Notes under the pieces: generated by a model | Seen by the model: only the letters and a program-made list of their open reading frames with translations | Database searches by the model: none | What the model was told of the DNA's origin: nothing | Source: an uncultured Celeribacter sp. | Lineage (GTDB): Bacteria; Pseudomonadota; Alphaproteobacteria; Rhodobacterales; Rhodobacteraceae | DNA length: 43,766 nt | Direction: 5' to 3' | Assembly: GCA_938008015.1 (NCBI GenBank) | Contig: CALLMA010000049.1 | Coordinates: forward strand, 1 to 43,766 | Translations under genes and position numbers: made by a program | Part shown: one piece after another, positions 1 through 17,416 of the stretch | Layout: every line of letters begins with the position of its first letter | Numbering within the stretch: the stretch's first letter is position 1

Positions 1-420
1 GATGTAGCCCATTCTTTAACACCACAAGATTGCCTTGTTGCGATTATGATCGCTCAATCAATGTCGGATGCCGATATTGGGACGGCAGAATTGATCACTA
101 TTGAGAATATTGTAAACCACCTGCCAGTTTTCGCTGGTTACGATGCTGATCGTATTAAAACAGTGTCAAATACAGTGTTTGATCTCTTTTCAGAAGAAGA
201 TGGTTTGGATGCGCTGTTTGGCTTGGTCCGTTCTAATCTTCCTGAAAACTTATATGAAACGGCATATGCGCTTGCTTGCGATGTGACGGCAGCAGATGGG
301 AAGACGCACCAAACTGAATTGAGACTTTTAAAAGAAATTAGATATGAGTTGAAAATTGATCGCCTGCACGGCGCAGCGATTGAGCGCGGCGCACGTGCGA
401 GATATATGCAATTAGGCTAG
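1..420 (+). CDS. TerB-like (tellurite resistance TerB family) protein, 5' end outside the window
   Basis: Frame stays open from base 1 (DVAHSLTPQDCLVAIMIAQSMSDADIGTAEL...), so the listed ATG at 46 is probably internal; acidic helical D-x-D-G pattern (SMSDADIGTAEL, DVTAADGKTHQTEL) resembles TerB domains. Confidence 0.7.
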   Translation, partial: DVAHSLTPQDCLVAIMIAQSMSDADIGTAELITIENIVNHLPVFAGYDADRIKTVSNTVFDLFSEEDGLDALFGLVRSNLPENLYETAYALACDVTAADGKTHQTELRLLKEIRYELKIDRLHGAAIERGARARYMQLG

Positions 421-923: not shown

Positions 924-1640
924 TTAAAAAGGCAATAAAATATCGGCTATTTGCTGGCCATACCTTGGCTGCTGCATTCTGGTTATTTGGCCTCGGCCAC
1001 CGTAAGAAATGCGTGCGGATGCTATCTTGTCGTATGTGATTTCATTTTTGCGCGATATATCCTCAGGGCGTACAAAACCCTCGACTAAGAGCTCGCGCAC
1101 CTCATAGTTGACGCGCACCTCTTGCGAACCTTGGATTTGCAGCACACCGTTTGGCAATACATCCGTGATTGTTGCGGCAACGATAAGCTCTAATTTTTCA
1201 TTCCGGCTCACACTGCCTTCACCAGATGAACTAGAGGAAGAATTGGTTGATACGGCGTCTGCTATCGTAGTTCCTCCACCAAGTTTCAAAATTTCGGGAA
1301 TGCCTAAAAGAGAAGGGATACCTAAGCTTTCACTTCCAGAGCGCCCTCTTTGAGAGCTGTTTGAAAACTCAGCACTTTCATCAATTTCAATCACAACAGT
1401 TAAGATATCCCCTCGATCTATGGCGCGCCTGTCGCCAAAAAGGGATTGCCTTGAAGCCGTCCATAAGGAAGCGCTATTTTGCCTTTTGTTGGGGGCATTG
1501 CGTCCGGTTGTCGCTTCGCGCATGGTAAAAGCCTCTGCGCCTGCATGGATCGGAGTGAGTTCGGGCACTTGGCCGACATGAGCCAAATCTGAGCATGCAG
1601 AAATAAATATGAGAGTAATGAATAGTATGAATTTTTTCAC
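924..1640 (-). CDS. flgH: Flagellar L-ring protein FlgH (lipoprotein)
   Basis: Lipobox ISACSD; FlgH motifs SLW, LFGDRRAIDRGDILTVVIEIDESAEFSNSS, GVLQIQGSQEVRVNYEVRELLVEGFVRPEDI. Confidence 0.95.
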   Translation of the reverse strand: MKKFILFITLIFISACSDLAHVGQVPELTPIHAGAEAFTMREATTGRNAPNKRQNSASLWTASRQSLFGDRRAIDRGDILTVVIEIDESAEFSNSSQRGRSGSESLGIPSLLGIPEILKLGGGTTIADAVSTNSSSSSSGEGSVSRNEKLELIVAATITDVLPNGVLQIQGSQEVRVNYEVRELLVEGFVRPEDISRKNEITYDKIASARISYGGRGQITRMQQPRYGQQIADILLPF

Positions 1641-1665
1641 TTTTTAAAACCTGTATTTTGTGAGG

Positions 1666-2007
1666 CTAGCCGCCTACATAAATCACTCCATCAACTGAAA
1701 CGTTGCCTGTAACTGTTGCTTTTGATGCTAGATTTAAGACATCAATCTCTTCACCAGGCTCAGCGCTGTGCAAAGACTTCCCGTCGGCACGAATAGACAA
1801 GCTTCCATAGGAGTAGATTATTGGAATTATGTCATCTTTCTTGACATAAGCAGTAGTGCTCACTTGTCTGTTTGGTGCAGGAATACGCATCTCAAAGGCA
1901 GCAAGCCCAGTTTGATCCGGTGCTGAGGCGTGGTTCTGTTCCATTTGTTTTGGCCCAGAACATGCAGAGATTAAGGGGCACAATGATAATAAAAGAAGTT
2001 GTTTCAT
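1666..2007 (-). CDS. FlgA-like C-terminal-domain lipoprotein (paralog of the adjacent flgA)
   Basis: Start moved to ATG at 2007 with AGGTG upstream; signal peptide MKQLLLLSLCPLISACSG with lipobox; C-terminal 57 aa identical at 34 positions (hand alignment) to the neighbouring FlgA. Confidence 0.8.
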   Translation of the reverse strand: MKQLLLLSLCPLISACSGPKQMEQNHASAPDQTGLAAFEMRIPAPNRQVSTTAYVKKDDIIPIIYSYGSLSIRADGKSLHSAEPGEEIDVLNLASKATVTGNVSVDGVIYVGG

Positions 2008-2026
2008 TTTTTTAACACCTATGAGC

Positions 2027-2464
2027 TTAGTGGGATAAACCACCAACATAAACCGCCCCACTTTGTGAAACCGTTCCGGTGATTGTTGTTTTGGAAGCTA
2101 GATTCATTACCCTAATGATTTCACCAAGGCCTGCGCGCTGAAGGGATCTTCCATCTGTGTGAATTGATAGGCCGCCATGTGAGTAAATCAGGGGTATAAT
2201 TTGATTGCGCTCGACTATGGCCGCCATACCCAAATCGTTTAACGAAATTGGCTTTCCTGCATAAATGACTTTTCGTGTTTCAAGGCCAATGGCTGTATCA
2301 AAATCTGAGAACATGCCTGGAATAGATTGATCAATTGTTTTTAGATCATCAGCTGTCACGATGGTATTTGCGCGCAAAGTGCGTGCTGCGATAAGGGTTT
2401 CGGCAATGGCATTATGATAAGGCCAAATAGCTAAAACGAGTAAGAATATACATCGCTTGATCAT
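2027..2464 (-). CDS. flgA: Flagellar P-ring assembly chaperone FlgA
   Basis: SAF-type N-terminus (LIAARTLRANTIVTADDL), NQIIPLIYSHGGLSIHTDGRSLQRAGLGEIIRVMNLASKTTITGTV; operon position next to flgG. Confidence 0.9.
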   Translation of the reverse strand: MIKRCIFLLVLAIWPYHNAIAETLIAARTLRANTIVTADDLKTIDQSIPGMFSDFDTAIGLETRKVIYAGKPISLNDLGMAAIVERNQIIPLIYSHGGLSIHTDGRSLQRAGLGEIIRVMNLASKTTITGTVSQSGAVYVGGLSH

Positions 2465-5449: not shown

Positions 5450-6781
5450 ATGACTTCGGTTGATTTACCACACCTGTCCGCAGCCATGAAATTGATCAAA
5501 ATGACCCATGAAATTGGGCGCATCGTGGAAATTTCTAAAACGACGATAGCCGTAAGTGGGCTTGAGCATATTTCATCGCTTGGTGATTTGGTTGAGGTTG
5601 AAACAGATGAAGGGGAACGGCGCGGAGAAATTCTGCAACTTACAGAACATCAAGCCATTATCTTGGTTGATGGGGGTGTGGATGGATTATCTATTGGAGA
5701 TTCGGTGATCCATATTGGCGCAAATACAATTGCGCCTGATAATAGCTGGGTTGGCCGCATTATAGATCCCTTTGGTAAATCATTAAATGGCAAACCTGTG
5801 ATCAGCGGATTGCAGCAAAAACCACTTCGCGCAAAATCGCCCAATCCCACTGCAAGGAAGCCTTGGGGCGAACGGCTGGAAACAGGTATGAAGGTCTTTA
5901 ATACCATGCTGCCGATCGTTCGAGGCCAAAGAATAGGGCTTTTTGCTGGGTCTGGCGTTGGAAAAACATCCCTTTTGGCAAAGCTCGCGCAGGGGCTGGA
6001 AGCGGATGTTGTTGTGATTGCGATGATTGGGGAGAGGGGCAGAGAGGTGCGTGAGTTTGCAGAGAATGTTTTGGGCCCCGAGGGGATGAAGCGCTCTGTT
6101 ATCGTCGCGGCGACTTCAGATCAATCTGCTATGATACGCCGCCGATGCGCTTGGAGTGCGATGTGCGTCGCAGAATATTTTCGCGATCAGGGCAAACAAG
6201 TCCTCTTTTTGGCGGATTCAATTACTAGGTTTGCTGAGGCGCACCGAGAAGTGGCTTTGGCAACAGGTGAAGAAAGCAGCCTGAGAGGATTTCCCCCCTC
6301 AACAGTTTCAATGATTACAGGGCTGTGTGAGAGAGCAGGGCCCGGGGAAGAAAATGCGGGAGATATTACGGCTGTCCTTTCCGTTTTAGTATCAGGATCT
6401 GATATGGATGAACCCGTTGCAGATATTTTGCGAGGGGTTTTGGATGGGCATATTGTACTCGATCGTAAAATTGCAGAGCGGGGTAGATTTCCCGCGATTG
6501 ACCTGCTTCGATCCGTGTCTCGATCCTTGCCAAAAGCGGCAAGCTTTTCAGAAAATGAGCTGATAAACGCTGCGCGAAAGTATCTTGGCGCGTATGATCG
6601 CAGCGAAATGATGATCCAAGCTGGCTTATATTCAAATGGCACCGATCCCATTTTGGATAAGGCGATCCAATTTTGGGCGGGATTGGATGAGTTTTTATCT
6701 CAAAATGAAACTCAAGATTCCCAGAAAAGCTTTCAAGATCTCGCTCATGTTATGGGGATGAAGTTTGTGAAAGGTAGATAG
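5450..6781 (+). CDS. fliI: Flagellum-specific ATPase FliI
   Basis: Walker A GLFAGSGVGKTSLLAKLA; IGERGREVREF; FLADSITRFAEAHREVALATGE; divergent from flgB. Confidence 0.95.
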   Translation: MTSVDLPHLSAAMKLIKMTHEIGRIVEISKTTIAVSGLEHISSLGDLVEVETDEGERRGEILQLTEHQAIILVDGGVDGLSIGDSVIHIGANTIAPDNSWVGRIIDPFGKSLNGKPVISGLQQKPLRAKSPNPTARKPWGERLETGMKVFNTMLPIVRGQRIGLFAGSGVGKTSLLAKLAQGLEADVVVIAMIGERGREVREFAENVLGPEGMKRSVIVAATSDQSAMIRRRCAWSAMCVAEYFRDQGKQVLFLADSITRFAEAHREVALATGEESSLRGFPPSTVSMITGLCERAGPGEENAGDITAVLSVLVSGSDMDEPVADILRGVLDGHIVLDRKIAERGRFPAIDLLRSVSRSLPKAASFSENELINAARKYLGAYDRSEMMIQAGLYSNGTDPILDKAIQFWAGLDEFLSQNETQDSQKSFQDLAHVMGMKFVKGR

Positions 6782-6783
6782 GC

Positions 6784-8235
6784 CTAAATATTCCCAAAAC
6801 ACATTGTTTTTATTTCAGTAAATTCGTCACACCCATATTTGGATCCCTCGCGTCCAAGCCCAGATTCCTTAACGCCGCCAAAAGGCACTGTCTCTGAGGA
6901 GATGCTGCCGGCATTGATCGCAACCATCCCAACCTCAAGCGCTTCGCCAAATCTAAAGGCTCGCGAGATATCTTGCGTGTAAAAATATCCAGCCAATCCG
7001 ACATTGCTGTCGTTGGCCATGTCCAAGACTTCCTCCTCAGTCTCAAATTTGATCAAAGGTGCGATAGGGCCAAATGTTTCCTCATGCGCTATCAGCATGT
7101 TGTGGGTGACATTTGAAAGAAGTGTGGGTTGGAAATATGTCCCCCCAAGGCCGTGCTTCTGCCCGCCAACGTCAACTTTAGCGCCTAAACTTACCGCGTC
7201 ACGAATGTGCCGTTCGACTTTTAATATCGCTTCTTGATCAATCAGAGGCCCTGTGTCGATATTTGGGGCAAAGGCATCGCCAACGCTGAGTGCGCTGATT
7301 TTATGCGAGAGCTTCTCTTTAAATCGCTCATAAATCGAAGATTGTACATAAATGCGATTGGCGCAAACGCAAGTTTGCCCAGAATTGCGGAATTTTGATG
7401 CCATTGCGCCTTCAACAGCAAGATCGATATCGGCGTCCTCAAAGACAACAAATGGGGCATTTCCTCCCAATTCAAGCGACATTTTCTTGATATGATCAGA
7501 GCAATTTTTCATCAAAATTTTGCCGACCCTCGTAGAGCCCGTGAAGGTCACTTTTGCAACCTTGGGGGAGGCGCATAAAAGCTCACCTGCGGCCTCAGGC
7601 GCATAGGTTGGTACAATGTTCAAAACGCCGTCCGGCAGCCCAGCTTGCTGAGCAATTTTACCAATCGCAAGGGCTGACAAAGGCGTCAGTTCAGATGGCC
7701 GCAAGACAACGGTGCACCCTGTCGCGAGTGCGGGAGCAATTTTGCGGGCAATCATGGCATTTGGAAAATTCCAAGGCGTAATGGCGGCAACAACGCCCAC
7801 AGGCTGTTTGATAACCATAATTCTTTTATCCCGAGTTGGCATCGGAATTATATCGCCGTAAAGCCGCTTTGCTTCTTCAGAAAACCAGTCGAAATATGAA
7901 GCGCCATAAAGCACTTCCTTTCGCGCTTCAGATAGTGGTTTTCCGTTTTCTGATGACAATATAGTAGCGAGATCATCGCTATTCTCAGTCAAAAGAGTGG
8001 CAATTTTTTTGAGGATTTGAGAGCGTTCTTTTGCCGTTTTCTGCGCCCATTTCTTTTTGGCGCAATGGGCTGAGGTGATCGCTTTTTCAATGCCCCATAG
8101 CCCTGCATCACCAACAGAAGAGATGACTTTTTGATCTGAAGGATTAGAGACATCAAATTGCTCGTCGCAGTTGATCCACTCCCCATTGATAAATGGAAAA
8201 GGCGTTAATAAGTGCGGATTTTTTAAGTGCAGCAT
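6784..8235 (-). CDS. NAD(P)-dependent aldehyde dehydrogenase, succinate-semialdehyde dehydrogenase-like
   Basis: ITPWNFPNAMIARKIAPALATGCTVVLRPSELTPLSA, MSLELGGNAPFVVFEDAD, NSGQTCVCANRIYV catalytic Cys, PFGGVKESGLGREGSKYG. Confidence 0.9.
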   Translation of the reverse strand: MLHLKNPHLLTPFPFINGEWINCDEQFDVSNPSDQKVISSVGDAGLWGIEKAITSAHCAKKKWAQKTAKERSQILKKIATLLTENSDDLATILSSENGKPLSEARKEVLYGASYFDWFSEEAKRLYGDIIPMPTRDKRIMVIKQPVGVVAAITPWNFPNAMIARKIAPALATGCTVVLRPSELTPLSALAIGKIAQQAGLPDGVLNIVPTYAPEAAGELLCASPKVAKVTFTGSTRVGKILMKNCSDHIKKMSLELGGNAPFVVFEDADIDLAVEGAMASKFRNSGQTCVCANRIYVQSSIYERFKEKLSHKISALSVGDAFAPNIDTGPLIDQEAILKVERHIRDAVSLGAKVDVGGQKHGLGGTYFQPTLLSNVTHNMLIAHEETFGPIAPLIKFETEEEVLDMANDSNVGLAGYFYTQDISRAFRFGEALEVGMVAINAGSISSETVPFGGVKESGLGREGSKYGCDEFTEIKTMCFGNI

Positions 8236-8435
8236 ATCATTCCCCTGAGCTCGGAATACCTTGTGGGTGCAAGGATTGAGGCAAGGAACATTTTATCAGA
8301 AGAATGTCAATTTGTTAAAAGGTCTTTATCGGTTGTTGTCTCGAACCTAGGTGCGCATGCGGTAAAACTATGTAACATTCTTGAAATCTTGCCGGCGGCA
8401 ATGTTATTACTTCCCTTAAGCTTTAAGGAATTAAG
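8236..8435. promoter_or_regulatory. Divergent promoter region (aldehyde dehydrogenase / LacI-type regulator) containing several short palindromes
   Basis: ACCTAGGT 8345-8352; CGCATGCG 8354-8361; TTGCCGGCGGCAA 8389-8401; CCTTAA-GCT-TTAAGG 8414-8428 just before the regulator start; AAGGA RBS. Confidence 0.5.
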
Positions 8436-9467
8436 ATGGGCAATGAGAGAATAACAACGATGGAAGAGTTCGCTGCCTTAAGTGGCATCTCTCGCCCGAC
8501 ATTGTCTAAATATTTTAATGATCCAGCCTCTGTTCGCAGCTCCACGCGGGAGAAAATCGAAGCTGCGCTCAAAAAATATGATTATACTCCAAACATTTAT
8601 GCAATAAATCAAAATAGAGAAACAACGCGGAATATAGGCATCGTACTTCCGAATTTATCGGATCCCTTCTTTGCTGAGATGGCGCGTGAAGCGGAGGTTG
8701 CCTGCTTTAAGGCGGGGTATACGCCGGTTGTTTTAAGTTCGCATGGCCAGCCCAAGCGCGAGATTGCAAATTTGGAGTTTTTAAGAACCCTCAAACCTGC
8801 AGGCGTCTTAATGGCGCCTTTTGGACGCAATTCAAAGAAAGAAGAAGTGCGCCGTTTGAGTAAGGAGTTCAAAATCGTATTTTTTGATTCCCAAGTAGAA
8901 GGCTGCGGATATGGCTACTTTGGAACGGACCGCGAGCAAACAATTGATTTGATGGTAGACTATCTGTGCCGCAGTGGGCAGCCACCTTGCTTTTTTGGAA
9001 TGGAGAAGCCTTTAAATCCAAATGCGCGCAAACTTCACAATGCTTATGTTGGTTATATGGAGCGCAATAATCTTGAGCCTCATGTTTACCTAGCGAAGGG
9101 GACGGGCTGGGATTTCGAAGAAATTGGCTTTAATGAAGGCGGCCGGATGATGGAAAACGGTCTTTTTGTGTCTAATACAGTGTTTTGCAGCAATGACCGC
9201 TTGGCAATTGGGATGCTGGCAGCGGCGTTTAAATTGGGCATTCGCGTGGGGATCGAAGCTGATTCCCAGATGCGCATTGCCGGCCACGATAATCACCCTT
9301 TTGCAAAATTCACCGGCCCGCGTTTGACAACTATAGCACAAGATTTCAAAACAATCGCGCATTCGGCGGTTAATCATCTGATTGATATTATGAATATCGA
9401 TCAGCCTGAAAACTCTTATAAAACAGTTGAATTCCCAGGTGAATTGATCATGCGGGACTCTGCATAA
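8436..9467 (+). CDS. LacI-family transcriptional regulator
   Basis: N-terminal HTH TTMEEFAALSGISRPTLSKYFNDPASVRSSTREKIEAALKKYDYTPN then periplasmic-binding-like domain NIGIVLPNLSDPFFAEMAREAE. Confidence 0.93.
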   Translation: MGNERITTMEEFAALSGISRPTLSKYFNDPASVRSSTREKIEAALKKYDYTPNIYAINQNRETTRNIGIVLPNLSDPFFAEMAREAEVACFKAGYTPVVLSSHGQPKREIANLEFLRTLKPAGVLMAPFGRNSKKEEVRRLSKEFKIVFFDSQVEGCGYGYFGTDREQTIDLMVDYLCRSGQPPCFFGMEKPLNPNARKLHNAYVGYMERNNLEPHVYLAKGTGWDFEEIGFNEGGRMMENGLFVSNTVFCSNDRLAIGMLAAAFKLGIRVGIEADSQMRIAGHDNHPFAKFTGPRLTTIAQDFKTIAHSAVNHLIDIMNIDQPENSYKTVEFPGELIMRDSA

Positions 9468-9483
9468 TTTTACGCGTGTAAAA
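9468..9483. promoter_or_regulatory. Candidate LacI-type operator TTTTACGCGTGTAAAA
   Basis: 7 of 8 base pairs symmetric around a central CG, directly upstream of a -35-like TTGACG; immediately follows the regulator's stop codon. Confidence 0.55.
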
Positions 9484-9489
9484 AATATA

Positions 9490-9519
9490 TTGACGCGAAT
9501 TAATTTTGTGGCCTATGCT
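9490..9519 (+). promoter_or_regulatory. Candidate sigma70-type promoter for the polyol operon (TTGACG-N18-TATGCT)
   Basis: TTGACG at 9490-9495, 18-nt spacer, TATGCT at 9514-9519; GGGAGG RBS and ATG (9552) downstream. Confidence 0.5.
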
Positions 9520-9551
9520 CTTCTCAATAGTTATCTTTGGGAGGAAAATTC

Positions 9552-10850
9552 ATGAGTATCAAAAAAACCATTTTATCAGCGACGGCCTTAACGGCGCTTG
9601 CTGGTGCGTTATCAGCGGAAACGATTACCATCGCGACTGTTAACAACGGTGATATGGTTCGTATGCAAGGCTATACGGATGAGTTTACAAAAGCGACTGG
9701 GCATGAAGTTGAATGGGTCACATTGGAAGAAAATGTGCTTCGTCAGCGTGTGACAACAGATATCACCACAAAAGGCGGTCAGTTCGATATCATGACAATT
9801 GGTATGTATGAAACGCCAATTTGGGGTGCGAATGGCTGGCTTGTCGCGCTAGACGACTTAAGCGAAGAATATGATGCTGATGATATTTTGCCGGCAATGT
9901 CTGGTGGTTTGAGCCATGACGGCACGCTTTATGCTGCGCCTTTCTATGGTGAAAGCTCGATGATTATGTACCGCACAGATCTGATGGAAAAAGCAGGTCT
10001 TGAAATGCCTGTGTCTCCAACTTGGGATTTCATTCGTGAAGCGGCCGCTGGCATGACAGACCGTGATGCGGATATCAACGGTGTATGTTTGCGCGGAAAA
10101 GCTGGCTGGGGTGAAGGCGGTGCTTTCATTACTGCAATGTCCAACTCATTTGGCGCACGTTGGTTTGATGAGAATTGGCAGCCTACATTTGATAGCCCAG
10201 AATGGTTCAATACTGTTTCATTCTTCAAAAGCTTGATGGATGATTACGGCCCTGCAGGCTATGCCACGAATGGTTTCAATGAAAACTTGAACCTCTTCCA
10301 GCAAGGCAAATGCGGCATGTGGATTGATGCGACTGTTGCGGCATCATTTGTAACAAATCCAACGGATTCAACTGTTGCAGATAGTGTTGGCTTTGCGCTT
10401 GCGCCAAACACAGGCCTTGGTAAAAACTCCAACTGGTTGTGGGCATGGGCGCTTGCAATTCCTGCAGGTACACAAAAAGAAGCTGCGGCAAAAGAATTTA
10501 TCGAATGGGCAACATCTAAAGATTATATCGATTTAGTTGCTGCGAATGAAGGCTGGGCAAATGTGCCTCCAGGCGCACGTCAGTCTCTATATGACAACCC
10601 GAACTATCAAGAAGTTCCTTTTGCTCAGATGACTTTGGATTCAATTCTTTCAGCAGATCCAAATAATCCAACTGTAAAGCCTGTCCCTTATGTTGGTGTT
10701 CAGTTTGCGGCTATTCCTGAATTTGCTGGCATCGCAAGCCAAGTGAGCCAAGAGTTCTCCGCGGCATATGCAGGGCAACAAACAGTAGAAGAAGCCCTTG
10801 AGAAAGCTCAAGCGATTACTTCTGAAGAGATGGAAGCAGCTGGTTACTAA
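9552..10850 (+). CDS. smoE: Polyol (sorbitol/mannitol-type) ABC transporter substrate-binding protein
   Basis: Signal peptide MSIKKTILSATALTALAGALSAE, family-1 solute-binding fold; followed by two permeases, ATPase and polyol dehydrogenases. Start set at ATG 9552 after GGGAGG. Confidence 0.9.
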   Translation: MSIKKTILSATALTALAGALSAETITIATVNNGDMVRMQGYTDEFTKATGHEVEWVTLEENVLRQRVTTDITTKGGQFDIMTIGMYETPIWGANGWLVALDDLSEEYDADDILPAMSGGLSHDGTLYAAPFYGESSMIMYRTDLMEKAGLEMPVSPTWDFIREAAAGMTDRDADINGVCLRGKAGWGEGGAFITAMSNSFGARWFDENWQPTFDSPEWFNTVSFFKSLMDDYGPAGYATNGFNENLNLFQQGKCGMWIDATVAASFVTNPTDSTVADSVGFALAPNTGLGKNSNWLWAWALAIPAGTQKEAAAKEFIEWATSKDYIDLVAANEGWANVPPGARQSLYDNPNYQEVPFAQMTLDSILSADPNNPTVKPVPYVGVQFAAIPEFAGIASQVSQEFSAAYAGQQTVEEALEKAQAITSEEMEAAGY

Positions 10851-10863
10851 GCTTCTAAAATTC

Positions 10864-10892
10864 TAGGGAGGCATGAAATTTATGCCTCCCTA
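10864..10892 (+). terminator. Intercistronic hairpin between smoE and smoF (TAGGGAGGCAT-gaaattt-ATGCCTCCCTA)
   Basis: Perfect 11-bp stem with 7-nt loop, 13 nt after the smoE stop; no long T-tract, so attenuator/mRNA stabiliser more likely than a strong terminator. Confidence 0.8.
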
Positions 10893-10952
10893 TCTTTAAT
10901 ACCCCATTCATCTGCAATTTATTTTAATTGTTTCGCATAAGGATTTGATGTC

Positions 10953-11819
10953 ATGGCGACTCAGCATTCTAGATCTGCGGCACGTATCATGATGGCTCCA
11001 GCAGTAGTTTTGCTACTAGGTTGGATGCTTGTCCCGCTAATTATGACTTTGATGTTCTCGTTCAAAAGATACCTTCCCCTTCGGGGTGGAGATTTAGGTT
11101 GGACAGGATTTGATAATTATATTCGCTTCGTGAGTTCTTCCGCATTTTGGCCCGCAGTTTCAACGACGTTGATTATCGTGGGGGCCGTATTAATTATAAC
11201 TATCGTATTGGGCGTTCTATTAGCGTTGCTATTAGATCAGCCGATGTGGGGGCAAGGTGTTGTACGCATTCTTGTTATCGCACCATTTTTTGTTATGCCG
11301 ACCGTATCATCGTTGGTGTGGAAAAATATGTTCATGGATCCCACGAACGGATTATTTGCCCATCTATGGCGCTTTTTTGGTGCTGATCCCGTTGCATGGT
11401 TATCAGAGGCATCTGTGCCGTCAATTATCATGATTGTTTCATGGCAGTGGTTGCCCTTCGCAACTTTGATTTTGCTAACAGCAGTACAATCACTTGATAG
11501 CGAACAGCTTGAAGCGGCTGAAATGGATGGTGCACCAGCACTTTCTAAGTTTGGCTATTTGATTTTACCACACCTGAGCCGCGCAATTACAATCGTTGTG
11601 CTTATACAAACTATTTTCTTACTTTCGATATTTGCAGAGATTTTTGTTACTACGGGCGGCGCATTTGGTAGCCGTACGCTGACATATCTAATTTTCCAAC
11701 GCGTCTTAGAGAGCCAAAACGTAGGTTTAGGGTCTGCTGGTGGCGTCTATGCGATCATTCTTGCTAATATTGTTGCCATTTTCTTAATGCGCATCGTCGG
11801 TAAGAATTTGGACGCATGA
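10953..11819 (+). CDS. smoF: Polyol ABC transporter permease
   Basis: Multi-TM protein with EAAxxDGA-type loop (LEAAEMDGAPALSKFGYLILPHL). Confidence 0.9.
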   Translation: MATQHSRSAARIMMAPAVVLLLGWMLVPLIMTLMFSFKRYLPLRGGDLGWTGFDNYIRFVSSSAFWPAVSTTLIIVGAVLIITIVLGVLLALLLDQPMWGQGVVRILVIAPFFVMPTVSSLVWKNMFMDPTNGLFAHLWRFFGADPVAWLSEASVPSIIMIVSWQWLPFATLILLTAVQSLDSEQLEAAEMDGAPALSKFGYLILPHLSRAITIVVLIQTIFLLSIFAEIFVTTGGAFGSRTLTYLIFQRVLESQNVGLGSAGGVYAIILANIVAIFLMRIVGKNLDA

Positions 11820-11831
11820 GGAGGATAGAAT

Positions 11832-12662
11832 ATGGCACGAGGAATTACCAATCAACGTAAAGCGATCAATACAGCTGCCGCATGGGCGGTAGGGTTGCTG
11901 ATCTTCTTTCCGATCCTTTGGACAATTTTGACAAGTTTCAAAACCGAAGCACAAGCAATTGCAGATCCACCGATTTTCTTAGGTTTTAACTGGACGCTAG
12001 AAAATTATGCGACTGTGTTAGAGCGTTCGAATTATGCACGTTTCTTATGGAATTCGATTTTCATTGCAGGCGGTTCGACAATCTTGGGTCTCATCATCGC
12101 TATTCCGGCTGCGTGGTCGATGGCATTTGTGCCCTCAAAACGCACAAAGGATATCCTTCTATGGATGCTCTCAACCAAAATGCTACCAGCAGTGGGTGTG
12201 CTTTACCCGATCTATTTGATCTTTATCAAAATGGGTTTGCTCGATAGCAAAATTGGCTTGGTCGTTGTTTTGATGTTGATCAACTTACCGATCATCATCT
12301 GGATGCTTTATACTTACTTTAAAGAAATTCCGGGTGAAATCTTAGAAGCAGCGCGGATGGATGGGGCTTCATTAAAAGAAGAAATCCTATTTGTTCTAAC
12401 GCCAATGGCGATACCAGGCATTGCGTCAACGCTTTTACTCAACTTCATCTTAGCATGGAATGAAGCATTCTGGACACTCAATCTCACAGCCGTCAACGCA
12501 GCGCCACTCACAGCGTTTATTGCAAGTTACTCAAGCCCTGAGGGCCTATTCTTTGCAAAGCTCAGTGCAGCATCAACTATGGCTATTGCTCCAATTCTTA
12601 TTCTTGGCTGGTTCAGCCAGAAACAACTTGTCCGCGGCCTCACGTTCGGCGCGGTGAAATAA
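11832..12662 (+). CDS. smoG: Polyol ABC transporter permease
   Basis: Multi-TM protein with [25 protein letters not shown] loop; MalG-like. Confidence 0.9.
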
Positions 12663-12673
12663 GGAATAATCAC

Positions 12674-13678
12674 ATGGGACAAATTCAACTGAACCAAGTC
12701 ACGAAAACTTTTGGCAACGTCAATGTGATCCCGCCTCTTGATTTAACAATTCATGATGGTGAGTTTACAGTCTTCGTTGGGCCTTCTGGATGCGGTAAAT
12801 CAACGCTCTTGCGTATGATCGCCGGATTAGAAGATCTCACAACTGGATCGATTTCAATTGATGGAGTTGATGCAACAGATACGCCACCGGCCAAACGCGG
12901 CCTTGCGATGGTCTTTCAGTCATATGCGCTTTATCCGCATATGTCTGTGCGCAAGAATATCGCATTCCCAATGCGCATGGCGAAAATGCCAGAAGATGAG
13001 CAAAATAGACGTATCGAAGCGGCTGCGAAGGCCCTTAATCTGACGGATTACTTAGATCGCCGCCCAGGCCAGCTTTCAGGCGGGCAGCGGCAGCGCGTTG
13101 CCATTGGGCGTGCGATTGTTCGTGAACCTTCGGCCTTTTTGTTTGATGAACCTTTATCAAACCTTGATGCAGCTCTGCGCGTTGGCATGCGCCTCGAGAT
13201 TACAGAGATGCATGAGCGCCTCAAAACCACCATGATTTATGTGACACATGATCAGGTGGAAGCGATGACAATGGCGGATAAGATCGTTGTGCTTCGCGCA
13301 GGCATCATCGAACAAGTCGGATCGCCTTTGGAGCTCTATCATTCGCCTCAAAATGAGTTTGTTGCGAGTTTTATCGGCTCGCCAAAGATGAACCTGATTA
13401 AGGGCGAAGAAGCGGCGAAACATGGTGCGGCGACAATTGGCATCCGTCCTGAGCATACAGGCGTTTCGATGACGGAAGGCATGTGGAAAGGCCGCGTAGG
13501 CGTTTCTGAGCACCTTGGCTCTGACACGTTTATCCACGTTCATGATACCGGCCTTGCTGACATGATCACGGTGCGTATTAACGGCGATGTTCAAGTCAAA
13601 CATGGCGATACGATATACCTGAATCCTGAACTAGATAAATTGCATAAATTTGGTGCAGACGGGAAGCGGATCGACTGA
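12674..13678 (+). CDS. smoK: Polyol ABC transporter ATP-binding protein
   Basis: Walker [12 protein letters not shown]; signature [17 protein letters not shown]; Walker [14 protein letters not shown]. Confidence 0.95.
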
Positions 13679-14448
13679 TGCGCCTTGAGGGTAAAATAGC
13701 ATTGATTACAGGAGCTGCCAGAGGCATAGGTTTCGCATTTGCGCAGCGTTATGTGGCAGAAGGGGCTCGTGTAATCATTGCGGATATCAATTTTGAGGGG
13801 GCTCAAGTGGCTGCCTCAAAACTCGGCGAAGCGGCCTTTGCAGTTGAGCTGGATGTGACGGATCAACAAAGTATTCATGCAGCTATAGATAAGGCTGTAG
13901 AAAAATGCGGTCATATCGATGTGTTAATCAATAATGCGGCCATTTTTACCGCCGCTGAATTGCAAAATATAAAGCGCGACGACTATGCGAGCGTTTTTGA
14001 TGTCAATGTTTCGGGCGTTTTGTTCATGATGCAAGCCGTCAGTAAGCACATGATTGAGACGAAAACCAAAGGCCGGATTATCAATATGGCATCGCAAGCA
14101 GGGCGCCGCGGCGAAGCGCTTGTTGCAGTATATTGCGCCTCAAAGGCTGCGGTGATTAGCCTCACGCAATCAGCGGGCCTAAGTTTAATAAAGCACGGTA
14201 TTAATGTGAATGCTATTTCACCCGGTGTTGTCGATGGCGAGCATTGGGATGGTGTGGATCAATATTTTTCACAACTAGAAAAAAAAGAAGTGGGACAAAA
14301 AAAGGCCGAGGTGGGCGAGGCCGTTCCATATGGGCGCATAGGAATTGCGGAAGATCTAACTGGGATGGCAGTTTTTCTGGCGTCAGATGACGCGGATTAT
14401 GTTGTCGCTCAAACATATAATGTGGATGGTGGGCAATGGATGAGTTAA
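13678..14448 (+). CDS. smoS: SDR-family sorbitol (polyol) dehydrogenase
   Basis: TGAARGIGFAFA, NNAAIF, YCASKAAVISLTQSAG; start overlaps smoK stop (TGATG). Confidence 0.88.
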   Translation: MRLEGKIALITGAARGIGFAFAQRYVAEGARVIIADINFEGAQVAASKLGEAAFAVELDVTDQQSIHAAIDKAVEKCGHIDVLINNAAIFTAAELQNIKRDDYASVFDVNVSGVLFMMQAVSKHMIETKTKGRIINMASQAGRRGEALVAVYCASKAAVISLTQSAGLSLIKHGINVNAISPGVVDGEHWDGVDQYFSQLEKKEVGQKKAEVGEAVPYGRIGIAEDLTGMAVFLASDDADYVVAQTYNVDGGQWMS

Positions 14449-15905
14449 TTCCTCTTTTAAATGCAAATTTAGACCAAATTAAATATGAAAAGCCGCGCTA
14501 TGATCGCTCTCAACTGACGGCTGGGATTGTGCATATTGGCGTTGGTAATTTTCATAGAGCGCATCAAGCTTGGTATTTGCACCGTTTGATGCAGCAGGGC
14601 TTGGCGCATGATTGGGCCATCATTGGCGCGGGCGTGCGCGCATATGATGGTGCGATGCGTGAAAAGCTCAAAAGCCAAGATTGTCTTACAACTTTGCTTT
14701 CTTTAGACCCCAAAGAACAAAGCATCGAAATCATCGGGCCGATGATTGATTACATAGAGATTGAAGCTGGAAATGCACCTCTTATTGAGGCGATGTCTCG
14801 GCCAGAAATTCGGATTGTTTCTTTAACAATAACGGAGGGTGGATATTATATTGATCCTGTAACAGGCCACTTTGATCTCCATCATGCAGATATTGTTCAT
14901 GATATCCAAAATCCAGATCAACCAAGCACGGCATTTGGTGCAATTATTGCGGCCTTAAAAATAAGAAGAGAAGAGGGCCGTGGGCCTTTGAGCTTGCAAT
15001 CATGTGATAATATTCAAGGAAATGGCAATGTCCTCAAGGCAACAATTCTTGGCTTGGCGCGTGCTATAGACTCTCAGTTGAGCGATTGGATCAATGAGAA
15101 CGTGAGTTTCCCTAATTCCATGGTTGACTGCATCGCGCCCTCGATTGGCGCAGATGAGATTGACCGCATATCAGATTTTGGGATCAAAGATGTCGCGCCT
15201 GTGATGCATGAGCCGTTTAGATTTTGGGTAAGCGAAGATAATTTCTGCGCCTCGCGGCCACCGTGGGAAAAATCGGGTATGATCTTGACGCAAGATGTCC
15301 ATACATATGAGGCGATGAAATTGCGTTTGCTCAATGGCGGTCATCAACTTCTCGCAAATGCAGGAGAACTCTTGGGGCTGGAGACAATAGCGGATTGTAT
15401 GTCTCACACACAAGTGAGCGCCTTCTTTAAAAAGGTCGCACAAAATGAAATCGCGCCCTATGTCCGTGCGGTGCCGCAAGTCACACCGTCAGACTATATC
15501 GAACAAATTTCTGTGCGCTTCATGAATCCACAAATCAAAGATTCGACGCGCCGCGTTGCTTTTGATGGCAGCTCTAGGCATCCTGGCTTTTTATTGCCTT
15601 CTATTAAAGAGGGCATAGAAGCAGGTACAAGCATTGAAGGGCTCGCCCTTTCTCAAGCGCTGTGGGCGCGTATGTGCGCAGGCGTGAGAGAAGATCAAAG
15701 CGCGATTGAAGCGAACGACCCAAATTGGAAATATCTGAACGAGGTTGCAAATCGGGCTATATTAGACCCTATTCAATGGCTTGAAGGGAATGATTGCTAT
15801 GCGCAGATTGCGCATCATCAAGACTTCCGTGAATCTTTTGTTAGGTGGATGCATTCTTTGCGTGATAAAGGCACATTGATCACTTTGAATGAATATCTAG
15901 CTTAA
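14436..15905 (+). CDS. mtlK: Mannitol 2-dehydrogenase family polyol dehydrogenase
   Basis: GIVHIGVGNFHRAHQAWYLHRLM; ITEGGYYID; SCDNIQGNG; KLRLLNGGHQLLA; overlaps smoS 3' end by 13 nt. Confidence 0.93.
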   Translation: MDELIPLLNANLDQIKYEKPRYDRSQLTAGIVHIGVGNFHRAHQAWYLHRLMQQGLAHDWAIIGAGVRAYDGAMREKLKSQDCLTTLLSLDPKEQSIEIIGPMIDYIEIEAGNAPLIEAMSRPEIRIVSLTITEGGYYIDPVTGHFDLHHADIVHDIQNPDQPSTAFGAIIAALKIRREEGRGPLSLQSCDNIQGNGNVLKATILGLARAIDSQLSDWINENVSFPNSMVDCIAPSIGADEIDRISDFGIKDVAPVMHEPFRFWVSEDNFCASRPPWEKSGMILTQDVHTYEAMKLRLLNGGHQLLANAGELLGLETIADCMSHTQVSAFFKKVAQNEIAPYVRAVPQVTPSDYIEQISVRFMNPQIKDSTRRVAFDGSSRHPGFLLPSIKEGIEAGTSIEGLALSQALWARMCAGVREDQSAIEANDPNWKYLNEVANRAILDPIQWLEGNDCYAQIAHHQDFRESFVRWMHSLRDKGTLITLNEYLA

Positions 15906-15940
15906 CGGCGATTTATGCACATGGCGTTGGAGGGGCAGAA

Positions 15941-17416
15941 ATGTTTCTGGGAATTGACTTAGGCACTTCAGCTATTAAGGCATGCATCCTTGATCACGGC
16001 GGTAAGATTGTCGGTACATCAACGGTCCCCCTAGAGGTTTCCCAGCCCATGAAGGGGGCAAGTGAGCAAAATTGCGAAGAGTGGTGGCAAGCCTGCTGCA
16101 AGGCGGTCAATGGGCTACAATCAGAGCTGCGAGGCAATATCCTGGGGATTGGCTTTTCGGGGCAAATGCATGGGGCGGTTGTTTTAGATCGGGAATATAA
16201 ACCCGTTCGTCCAGTTATGCTGTGGAATGATGCGCGATCATCGGCACAATGCGCGGCTTTAGAGACTAAATTTAAAAACTTAGGCGAAATAACAGGCGTT
16301 CCAACGATGGCAGGTTTTACTGCGCCAAAGTTGATGTGGATTAAAGAACATGAACCAGAGTTATTCACGAAAATAAAACATATTTTACTCCCGAAAGACT
16401 ATCTCGGCCTGCGTATGCATGGTCAGCTTGTCACTGATCCTTCTGATGCTGCTGGCACAAGCTTATTCGACCAAAAGAAACGCCAATGGTCAGATGAGAT
16501 CTGTCGGGCCTGTGGGATTGATATTCAATGTTTGCCGCGTGTTTTGAGTGGCAATGAAGCCGTTGGACCTCTTTTGAGCGTCCCCGCCAAAGAACTTGGG
16601 TTGAAAGAGGGAATTCCAATTGTTGCGGGTGCTGGGGATGCTGCGGCTGGGGCGATTGGAATTGGGGCCATTGCCGATGGGGATGGCTTTATTTCCTTGG
16701 GCACTTCTGGTCAGTTATTTTTAACGGTTGATGCGTATAAATCTGGATATAAAAATTGTATCCACAGCTACGCGCATACATTGCCTGATAAGTGGTTTTA
16801 TATGGCGGCCATGCTCAACGGAGCACGCCCTATTGCTTGGCTGTCTGAGCTTTTGAAGCGTCCAATTGATGAGCTTATGCGCGAAGCAGAAGCAGCTGAG
16901 GCTGGCCCTTTGTTTTTGCCTTATCTTACGGGAGAAAGGACGCCGCATGGAGATAGCGATATTCGAGCTGGTTTCGCACTTCTTGATGAGACAACAACCC
17001 ACGGCAATTTGATGTATTCTGTCGTAGAGGCGATTGCGTTTTCATTCGCGGATGCGATTGAAGCCTTATCAAAAACGCGCGTACCGCCGAAAAATTTGCT
17101 TGTTATAGGGGGTGGAACGCGTAGCGATTTCTTATTGCAAAAAATTGCGGACGCCATTGGTTGCACCCTTCATATCTCAAAAGAGGCGAATGTTGGCCCT
17201 GCGCTAGGGGCGGCGCGTTTGGCTGCATCTGGGGTTCAAGCCAATACGATAATGAGCTTTGAAAAGCCTAGCATCGTAAAGGTTTTCCGGCCAAGCGTGC
17301 AAGAAAACCAAAGAATGGCAAAGCGCTTTTTGGCTTACCGCGAGCTATACAGCGCTTTGAGATCTGTGCAAAAAAAACTCATGCACGAAGAAGATCTTCC
17401 TAACCCTAGCGCATAG
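15941..17416 (+). CDS. xylB: Xylulokinase (FGGY family)
   Basis: MFLGIDLGTSAIKACILD; GFSGQMHGAVVLD; MLWNDARS; GAGDAAAGAIGIG; GGGTRSDFLLQKIADAIG. Confidence 0.93.
   Translation: MFLGIDLGTSAIKACILDHGGKIVGTSTVPLEVSQPMKGASEQNCEEWWQACCKAVNGLQSELRGNILGIGFSGQMHGAVVLDREYKPVRPVMLWNDARSSAQCAALETKFKNLGEITGVPTMAGFTAPKLMWIKEHEPELFTKIKHILLPKDYLGLRMHGQLVTDPSDAAGTSLFDQKKRQWSDEICRACGIDIQCLPRVLSGNEAVGPLLSVPAKELGLKEGIPIVAGAGDAAAGAIGIGAIADGDGFISLGTSGQLFLTVDAYKSGYKNCIHSYAHTLPDKWFYMAAMLNGARPIAWLSELLKRPIDELMREAEAAEAGPLFLPYLTGERTPHGDSDIRAGFALLDETTTHGNLMYSVVEAIAFSFADAIEALSKTRVPPKNLLVIGGGTRSDFLLQKIADAIGCTLHISKEANVGPALGAARLAASGVQANTIMSFEKPSIVKVFRPSVQENQRMAKRFLAYRELYSALRSVQKKLMHEEDLPNPSA

Follow-up and report, generated by a model that had tools for sequence, protein, structure and literature searches.

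A putative FlgH–FlgA chimeric lipoprotein gene between flgA and flgH in an uncultured Celeribacter

The flgA–flgH interval and its additional gene

The window, i.e., the whole stretch of 43,766 nucleotides analysed here (contig CALLMA010000049.1 of assembly GCA_938008015.1, an uncultured Celeribacter sp.), carries a flagellar operon on its minus strand in the order flgB-flgC-fliE-fliQ-flgF-flgG-flgA-X-flgH-fliL, with fliI diverging. FlgA is the flagellar P-ring chaperone and FlgH is the flagellar L-ring lipoprotein; the gene lying between them, here called X, is a putative hybrid of the two. The features of this interval are:

924..1640, minus strand: flgH, intact putative parent gene, L-ring lipoprotein, 238 aa, GTG start (Pfam PF02107, 3.2e-54)
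1641..1665, minus strand: X–flgH intergenic leader, matching copy of the flgA–X leader
1666..2007, minus strand: gene X, predicted chimeric FlgH(N-terminus)–FlgA(D3) lipoprotein, 113 aa, ATG start (from Pfam, BLASTP and the FlgH match)
1669..1869, minus strand: X residues 47–113, FlgA C-terminal D3 domain (PF13144, 8.9e-11)
1870..2007, minus strand: X residues 1–46, putatively FlgH-derived signal peptide, lipobox (Cys16 at 1960–1962) and mature linker; end of the FlgH part approximate
2008..2026, minus strand: flgA–X intergenic leader with an AGG(T) ribosome-binding-like motif, apparent copy of the flgH leader
2027..2464, minus strand: flgA, intact putative parent gene, SAF and D3 domains, 145 aa, D3 at 2039–2239 (PF13144, 3.4e-23; SAF, 1.4e-6)

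The X product consists of MKQLLLLSLCPLISA and CSGPKQMEQNHASAPDQTGLAAFEMRIPAPNRQ, followed by a 67-aa FlgA D3 domain with a YVGG end. Read by eye, its N-terminus has the layout of a lipoprotein signal, with an n-region, a hydrophobic core and the lipobox LISA followed by Cys16 (MKQLLLLSLCPLISA followed by CSG). A sequence-only reading of this DNA had proposed a signal peptide and lipobox in the 1666–2007 product, and the position of Cys16 after a predicted hydrophobic signal sequence bears this out.

The Pfam ChapFlgA model (PF13144) matches X over residues 47–110, corresponding to profile positions 58–121 of 122 (E 8.9e-11, 42.3 bits, cut-off 23.8), and X falls below the cut-off of the NCBIfam FlgA equivalog (TIGR03170; 51.0 vs. 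54.65 bits). No Pfam match to the SAF domain is found in X, while the neighbouring FlgA has both SAF and D3; this profile search agrees with the sequence-only reading that the SAF half is missing, and that reading's count of 34 matches to FlgA over a 57-aa C-terminal segment proved exact when the translated sequences were recounted. BLASTP aligns X with FlgA at 37 of 71 identical residues (E 4e-23). Over the D3 domain, 36 of 67 residues are identical to its own FlgA and at most 30 of 67 to any other FlgA, a nearest relationship that agrees with a lineage-specific duplication. In trees built from the 67-aa D3, X sits on a long branch with its placement not resolved, and a clade of X with FlgA is not rejected (AU p 0.54).

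Structural comparisons yielded no matches of X to PDB sequences by phmmer, while a search with the FlgA profile retrieves 3frn and 3tee/3vjp/3vki. An AlphaFold model of X has a pLDDT of 54 and no meaningful PDB match, with a genuine FlgA run as a control on the same shallow 7-sequence alignment reaching 49.5; this depth was insufficient even for the genuine protein. X shares with FlgA (PF13144 ChapFlgA; TIGR03170; PDB 3tee/3vjp/3vki, 3frn) the C-terminal D3 domain and the operon, but differs in having no SAF half, in a predicted FlgH-type lipoprotein signal in place of a soluble one, and in several altered near-invariant residues.

Origin of the additional gene

The N-terminal part of X resembles FlgH rather than FlgA. 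The signal peptides of X and FlgH are equally long (Cys16 in both, with Ser at +2 in both), and the ungapped match extends ~25 residues beyond them (MKQLLLLSLCPLISACSGPKQMEQNHASAPDQTGLAAFEMR vs. MKKFILFITLIFISACSDLAHVGQVPELTPIHAGAEAFTMR). A start-anchored, ungapped comparison over 42 codons gives 15 identities and a BLOSUM score of 50, against maxima of 9 and 23 among controls comprising 1,453 candidate starts from 421 genes of this genome; all gene starts were taken as controls, the strict lipoprotein control set amounting to 3 usable controls. For the mature part alone, the observed score is reached by 25 of 100,000 register-locked shuffles and by 16 of 130,766 proteome 25-mers of this genome. 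The match to FlgH proteins of relatives, with the window's own excluded, is weaker and points in the same direction (p 0.004–0.03), and X 17–50 shows no significant match to FlgA 22–80 (shuffle p 0.57). From these alignments, the first ~46 residues of X, lipobox included, are read as derived from FlgH. The shared part (from the leader and start through the signal peptide and lipobox to the first ~30 mature residues) does not extend to any of the L-ring beta-layers of FlgH: the PF02107 model, which begins at FlgH residue 54, beyond the part shared with X, has no match in X, and X ends short of the FlgH SLW and SLF motifs. By our own mapping of residues from the literature, the SLW and SLF(GDRR) of the window FlgH would be the counterparts of FlgI-contact residues.

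The same relationship is seen in the DNA. The best local alignment of the flgA-to-X region with the X-to-flgH region takes in, unforced, everything from the D3 codons to the lipobox (stop, leader, start and signal peptide included), with the intergenic leaders aligned as AGGTGTTAAAAAAATGAAA and AGGTTTTAAAAAGTGAAA. In a self-comparison of the DNA at shifts of 300–459 nt (n=160), the top shift is 370 nt (flgA onto X; score 61.2, 2215–2027, 62% identity) and the second is 367 nt (X leader and N-terminus onto flgH; score 16.8, 2015–1956, 60% identity), the remaining shifts having a mean of 6.0, a standard deviation of 1.3 and a maximum of 11.0. Two adjoining copies of a repeat unit can be delimited from these shifts and, for the second copy, also from spacing:

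1870..2239, minus strand: putative repeat unit copy 1, ~370 bp, flgA D3 codons, leader and X N-terminus; outer limits approximate
1500..1869, minus strand: putative repeat unit copy 2, ~370 bp, X D3 codons, leader and flgH N-terminus; outer limits approximate

In relatives flgA and flgH lie directly next to each other. There, 182–195 nt separate the flgA stop from the FlgH SLW within the genus and ~168–201 nt do so in nearly all other loci of the family, vs. 557 nt in the window. Subtraction of one repeat unit leaves 187–190 nt, so that the excess equals one unit.

Altogether, X is almost certainly, as judged from these sequence relationships, a FlgH–FlgA chimera produced by a single ~370-bp tandem duplication over the flgA/flgH junction with both parents left intact. 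The parsimonious history would be one duplication with ends in flgA (~codon 76) and flgH (~codon 46–52), converting the order A1A2-H1H2 into A1A2-(H1A2')-H1'H2, where flgA and flgH would remain whole and the new frame would open with FlgH sequence (start, signal peptide with lipobox, first ~30 mature residues) and continue into the FlgA D3. The sequence-only reading had invoked a tandem duplication as the source of a C-terminal FlgA module carrying a lipoprotein signal, which stands, and had taken flgA alone as the duplicated unit, which does not: besides the 3' half of flgA, the unit takes in the leader and the 5' end of flgH. Since it covers this last part, X would owe its signal peptide, lipobox and ~30-aa linker to FlgH.

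A larger duplication followed by a deletion would be expected to give the same outcome and would look the same as the one-step event. The picture implied by the sequence-only reading, in which a whole flgA was duplicated and the copy then shed the SAF half and acquired a lipobox of its own, is very improbable. It correctly derives the D3 of X from the neighbouring FlgA, and both mafft and BLAST can stretch X 27–46 onto the SAF/D3 boundary of FlgA, but gaps are needed to do so, the shuffle test on this part of the protein gave no significance, the N-terminus and leader of X match FlgH in register, and the surplus DNA amounts to one repeat unit. Fragmentation of the genome (137 contigs, 86% complete) might suggest an assembly artefact, an explanation that is barely credible because the two copies are just ~60% identical in DNA, with changes mostly at third positions, which misassembly cannot create.

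A comparable route is described for chimeric genes of Drosophila yakuba (PMC5460883), where tandem duplication likewise had breakpoints inside two neighbouring genes; the two cases share the route of birth, the intact parents and the new frame at the junction. The case of X differs in its setting, a bacterial flagellar operon, and in what would be combined, namely an export/anchor signal and a chaperone binding domain. X, whose parents, leader and repeat unit can all still be made out, is a clean example of hybrid-gene birth, indicating that one small tandem duplication within an operon can yield a new secreted hybrid protein with the parent genes spared. We regard X as a real, unusual and narrow finding, the evolutionary origin of which appears close to settled.

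Distribution, constraint and divergence

X is known so far from one fragmented genome. Searches of 19 further genomes in the same genus, 396 in the family (approximately one per genus) and 141 in the class gave no X. In a GTDB-based collection, X alone as a query retrieved no related loci and an X/FlgA alignment retrieved ordinary flgA–flgH loci only, and a search of plasmids yielded one ordinary flgA–flgH of Sulfitobacter and no X; some of the searched collections may omit records very near the genome of the window (sister strains). Eight genomes of the family have two FlgA hits, and these were ruled out as tandem pairs, the hits being on different contigs or far apart. The sequence-only reading had expected that a decaying duplicate might be recognised by a disrupted frame in relatives, which does not apply here, as no relative surveyed has X.

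Comparison of the D3 of X and FlgA as paralogues gave dN 0.41 and dS 1.57, i.e., a dN/dS of ~0.25 (bootstrap 95% 0.04–0.54), with 43 of 81 nucleotide differences at third codon positions; dN is at least half of dS, the range that would allow free drift of X, in 3.8% of bootstraps. Under simulated neutral drift at 0.8 substitutions per site (an endpoint count with substitutions only), the 113-codon frame was open in <1% of runs. This low dN/dS and the rarity of an open neutral frame indicate that X has probably been kept for most of its life.

At the same time, X has changed approximately four times faster than FlgA, with 15–17 unique residues vs. 3–4 (chi2 8–10), and it keeps 16 of 27 near-invariant D3 positions vs. 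23 of 27 in its own FlgA. Among residues characteristic of the FlgA family, the invariant R57, N58 and R77 are replaced by K, D and K, respectively, and the near-invariant R81 and R89 by S and D. The Gly/Leu/Ile/Val/Asn/Ser core of D3 is retained, and the net charge of the domain is -2 in X vs. a family mean of +1.3. The resulting picture is that of a fold that has been kept while its surface changed, suggestive of a relaxed or redirected function; because of the lost basic residues and the fast change, binding of FlgI by X may be weakened or replaced.

These observations bear on the main rival to a functional reading, partial decay, by which X would be a slowly decaying or nearly neutral by-product of the duplication, expressed through its operon position and doing little. 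We consider this a minority prospect, albeit a serious one: its occurrence in a single genome with no relative surveyed keeping it, the accelerated amino-acid change and the loss of conserved residues all speak for it, while the dN/dS value and the small share of bootstraps compatible with free drift speak against it, as do the frame, the lipobox and the conserved D3 positions that survive even though synonymous sites are near saturation. Should X be decaying, it would still document neatly how a chimeric gene arises in bacteria, with a narrow importance.

As a separate observation, the assembly measures 2.0 Mb at 86% completeness vs. 3.1–5.0 Mb for genomes of the same genus, suggesting that this member of the genus has a reduced genome, a trait that may be connected with fast evolution of its proteins.

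Possible role and genomic setting

In Salmonella, D3 of FlgA is needed for binding of the P-ring protein FlgI and for P-ring assembly, and a FlgA locked in the closed state binds FlgI but keeps the P ring from assembling, with a dominant-negative effect (PMC4895218). Given this role of D3, X is likeliest a FlgI-binding module. The predicted sequence of events is that X would leave the cytoplasm through Sec and receive its lipid at Cys16; its sorting would follow that of FlgH, as expected from the Ser at +2 in both proteins. This would leave a free D3 tethered by ~30 residues to what is probably the outer membrane, where it could retain or position FlgI beside the nascent L/P rings, alongside ordinary soluble FlgA. 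While the hybrid origin, the lipobox sequence, the identity of the domain and its constraint are observed, we infer from them lipidation, outer-membrane location, FlgI binding and an effect on ring assembly. An accessory, membrane-tethered and diverged FlgI-binding module near the forming P/L rings is thus proposed tentatively, at somewhat short of even chances, and the chimeric origin taken together with a tethered D3 role is, on balance, the best overall explanation of X.

A stronger version, in which X would be a new assembly factor, i.e., an outer-membrane lipoprotein handing FlgI to the growing L/P rings or holding it there and thereby coupling P- and L-ring formation, is unlikely. Such coupling becomes easier to imagine if a FlgI-binding domain carries the anchor of FlgH. 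Judging from its residues, X inherits the targeting, anchor and flexible linker of FlgH but none of its P-ring contacts, and this lack of the SLW/SLF FlgI-contact motifs, along with the change of several FlgA-invariant residues, possibly counts against coupling. A rather improbable alternative is a negative modulator that competes with FlgA for FlgI or never releases it, limiting P-ring formation or flagellar number. The behaviour of the locked Salmonella protein provides a precedent, and X does have a D3 without the SAF half against which D3 moves; nevertheless, a blocker encoded in the operon of its own target would be costly, and FlgI binding itself may be weaker owing to the altered basic residues. 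If the tethered-module reading is right and X is functional, it would represent a natural separation-of-function construct (a FlgI-binding D3 without SAF, tied to the membrane) and would bear on the FlgA/FlgI assembly of the P ring, a process that, to our knowledge, is still poorly understood.

The presumed partners are present in this genome: it has a single FlgI, encoded on a separate contig (C110, 18108–19136), and a single FlgH, and its basal-body operon is intact. Within the window the flagellar block ends at fliI (5450–6781); the region after it (~6784–17416) holds an aldehyde dehydrogenase gene followed by sugar-alcohol-type ABC transporter, dehydrogenase and kinase genes (names assigned by eye). 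At the other end, an open-ended ORF beside fliL (window positions 1–420), converging on it and with no Pfam match at 0.001, resembles by eye a TerB-like/tellurite-resistance-type helical protein.
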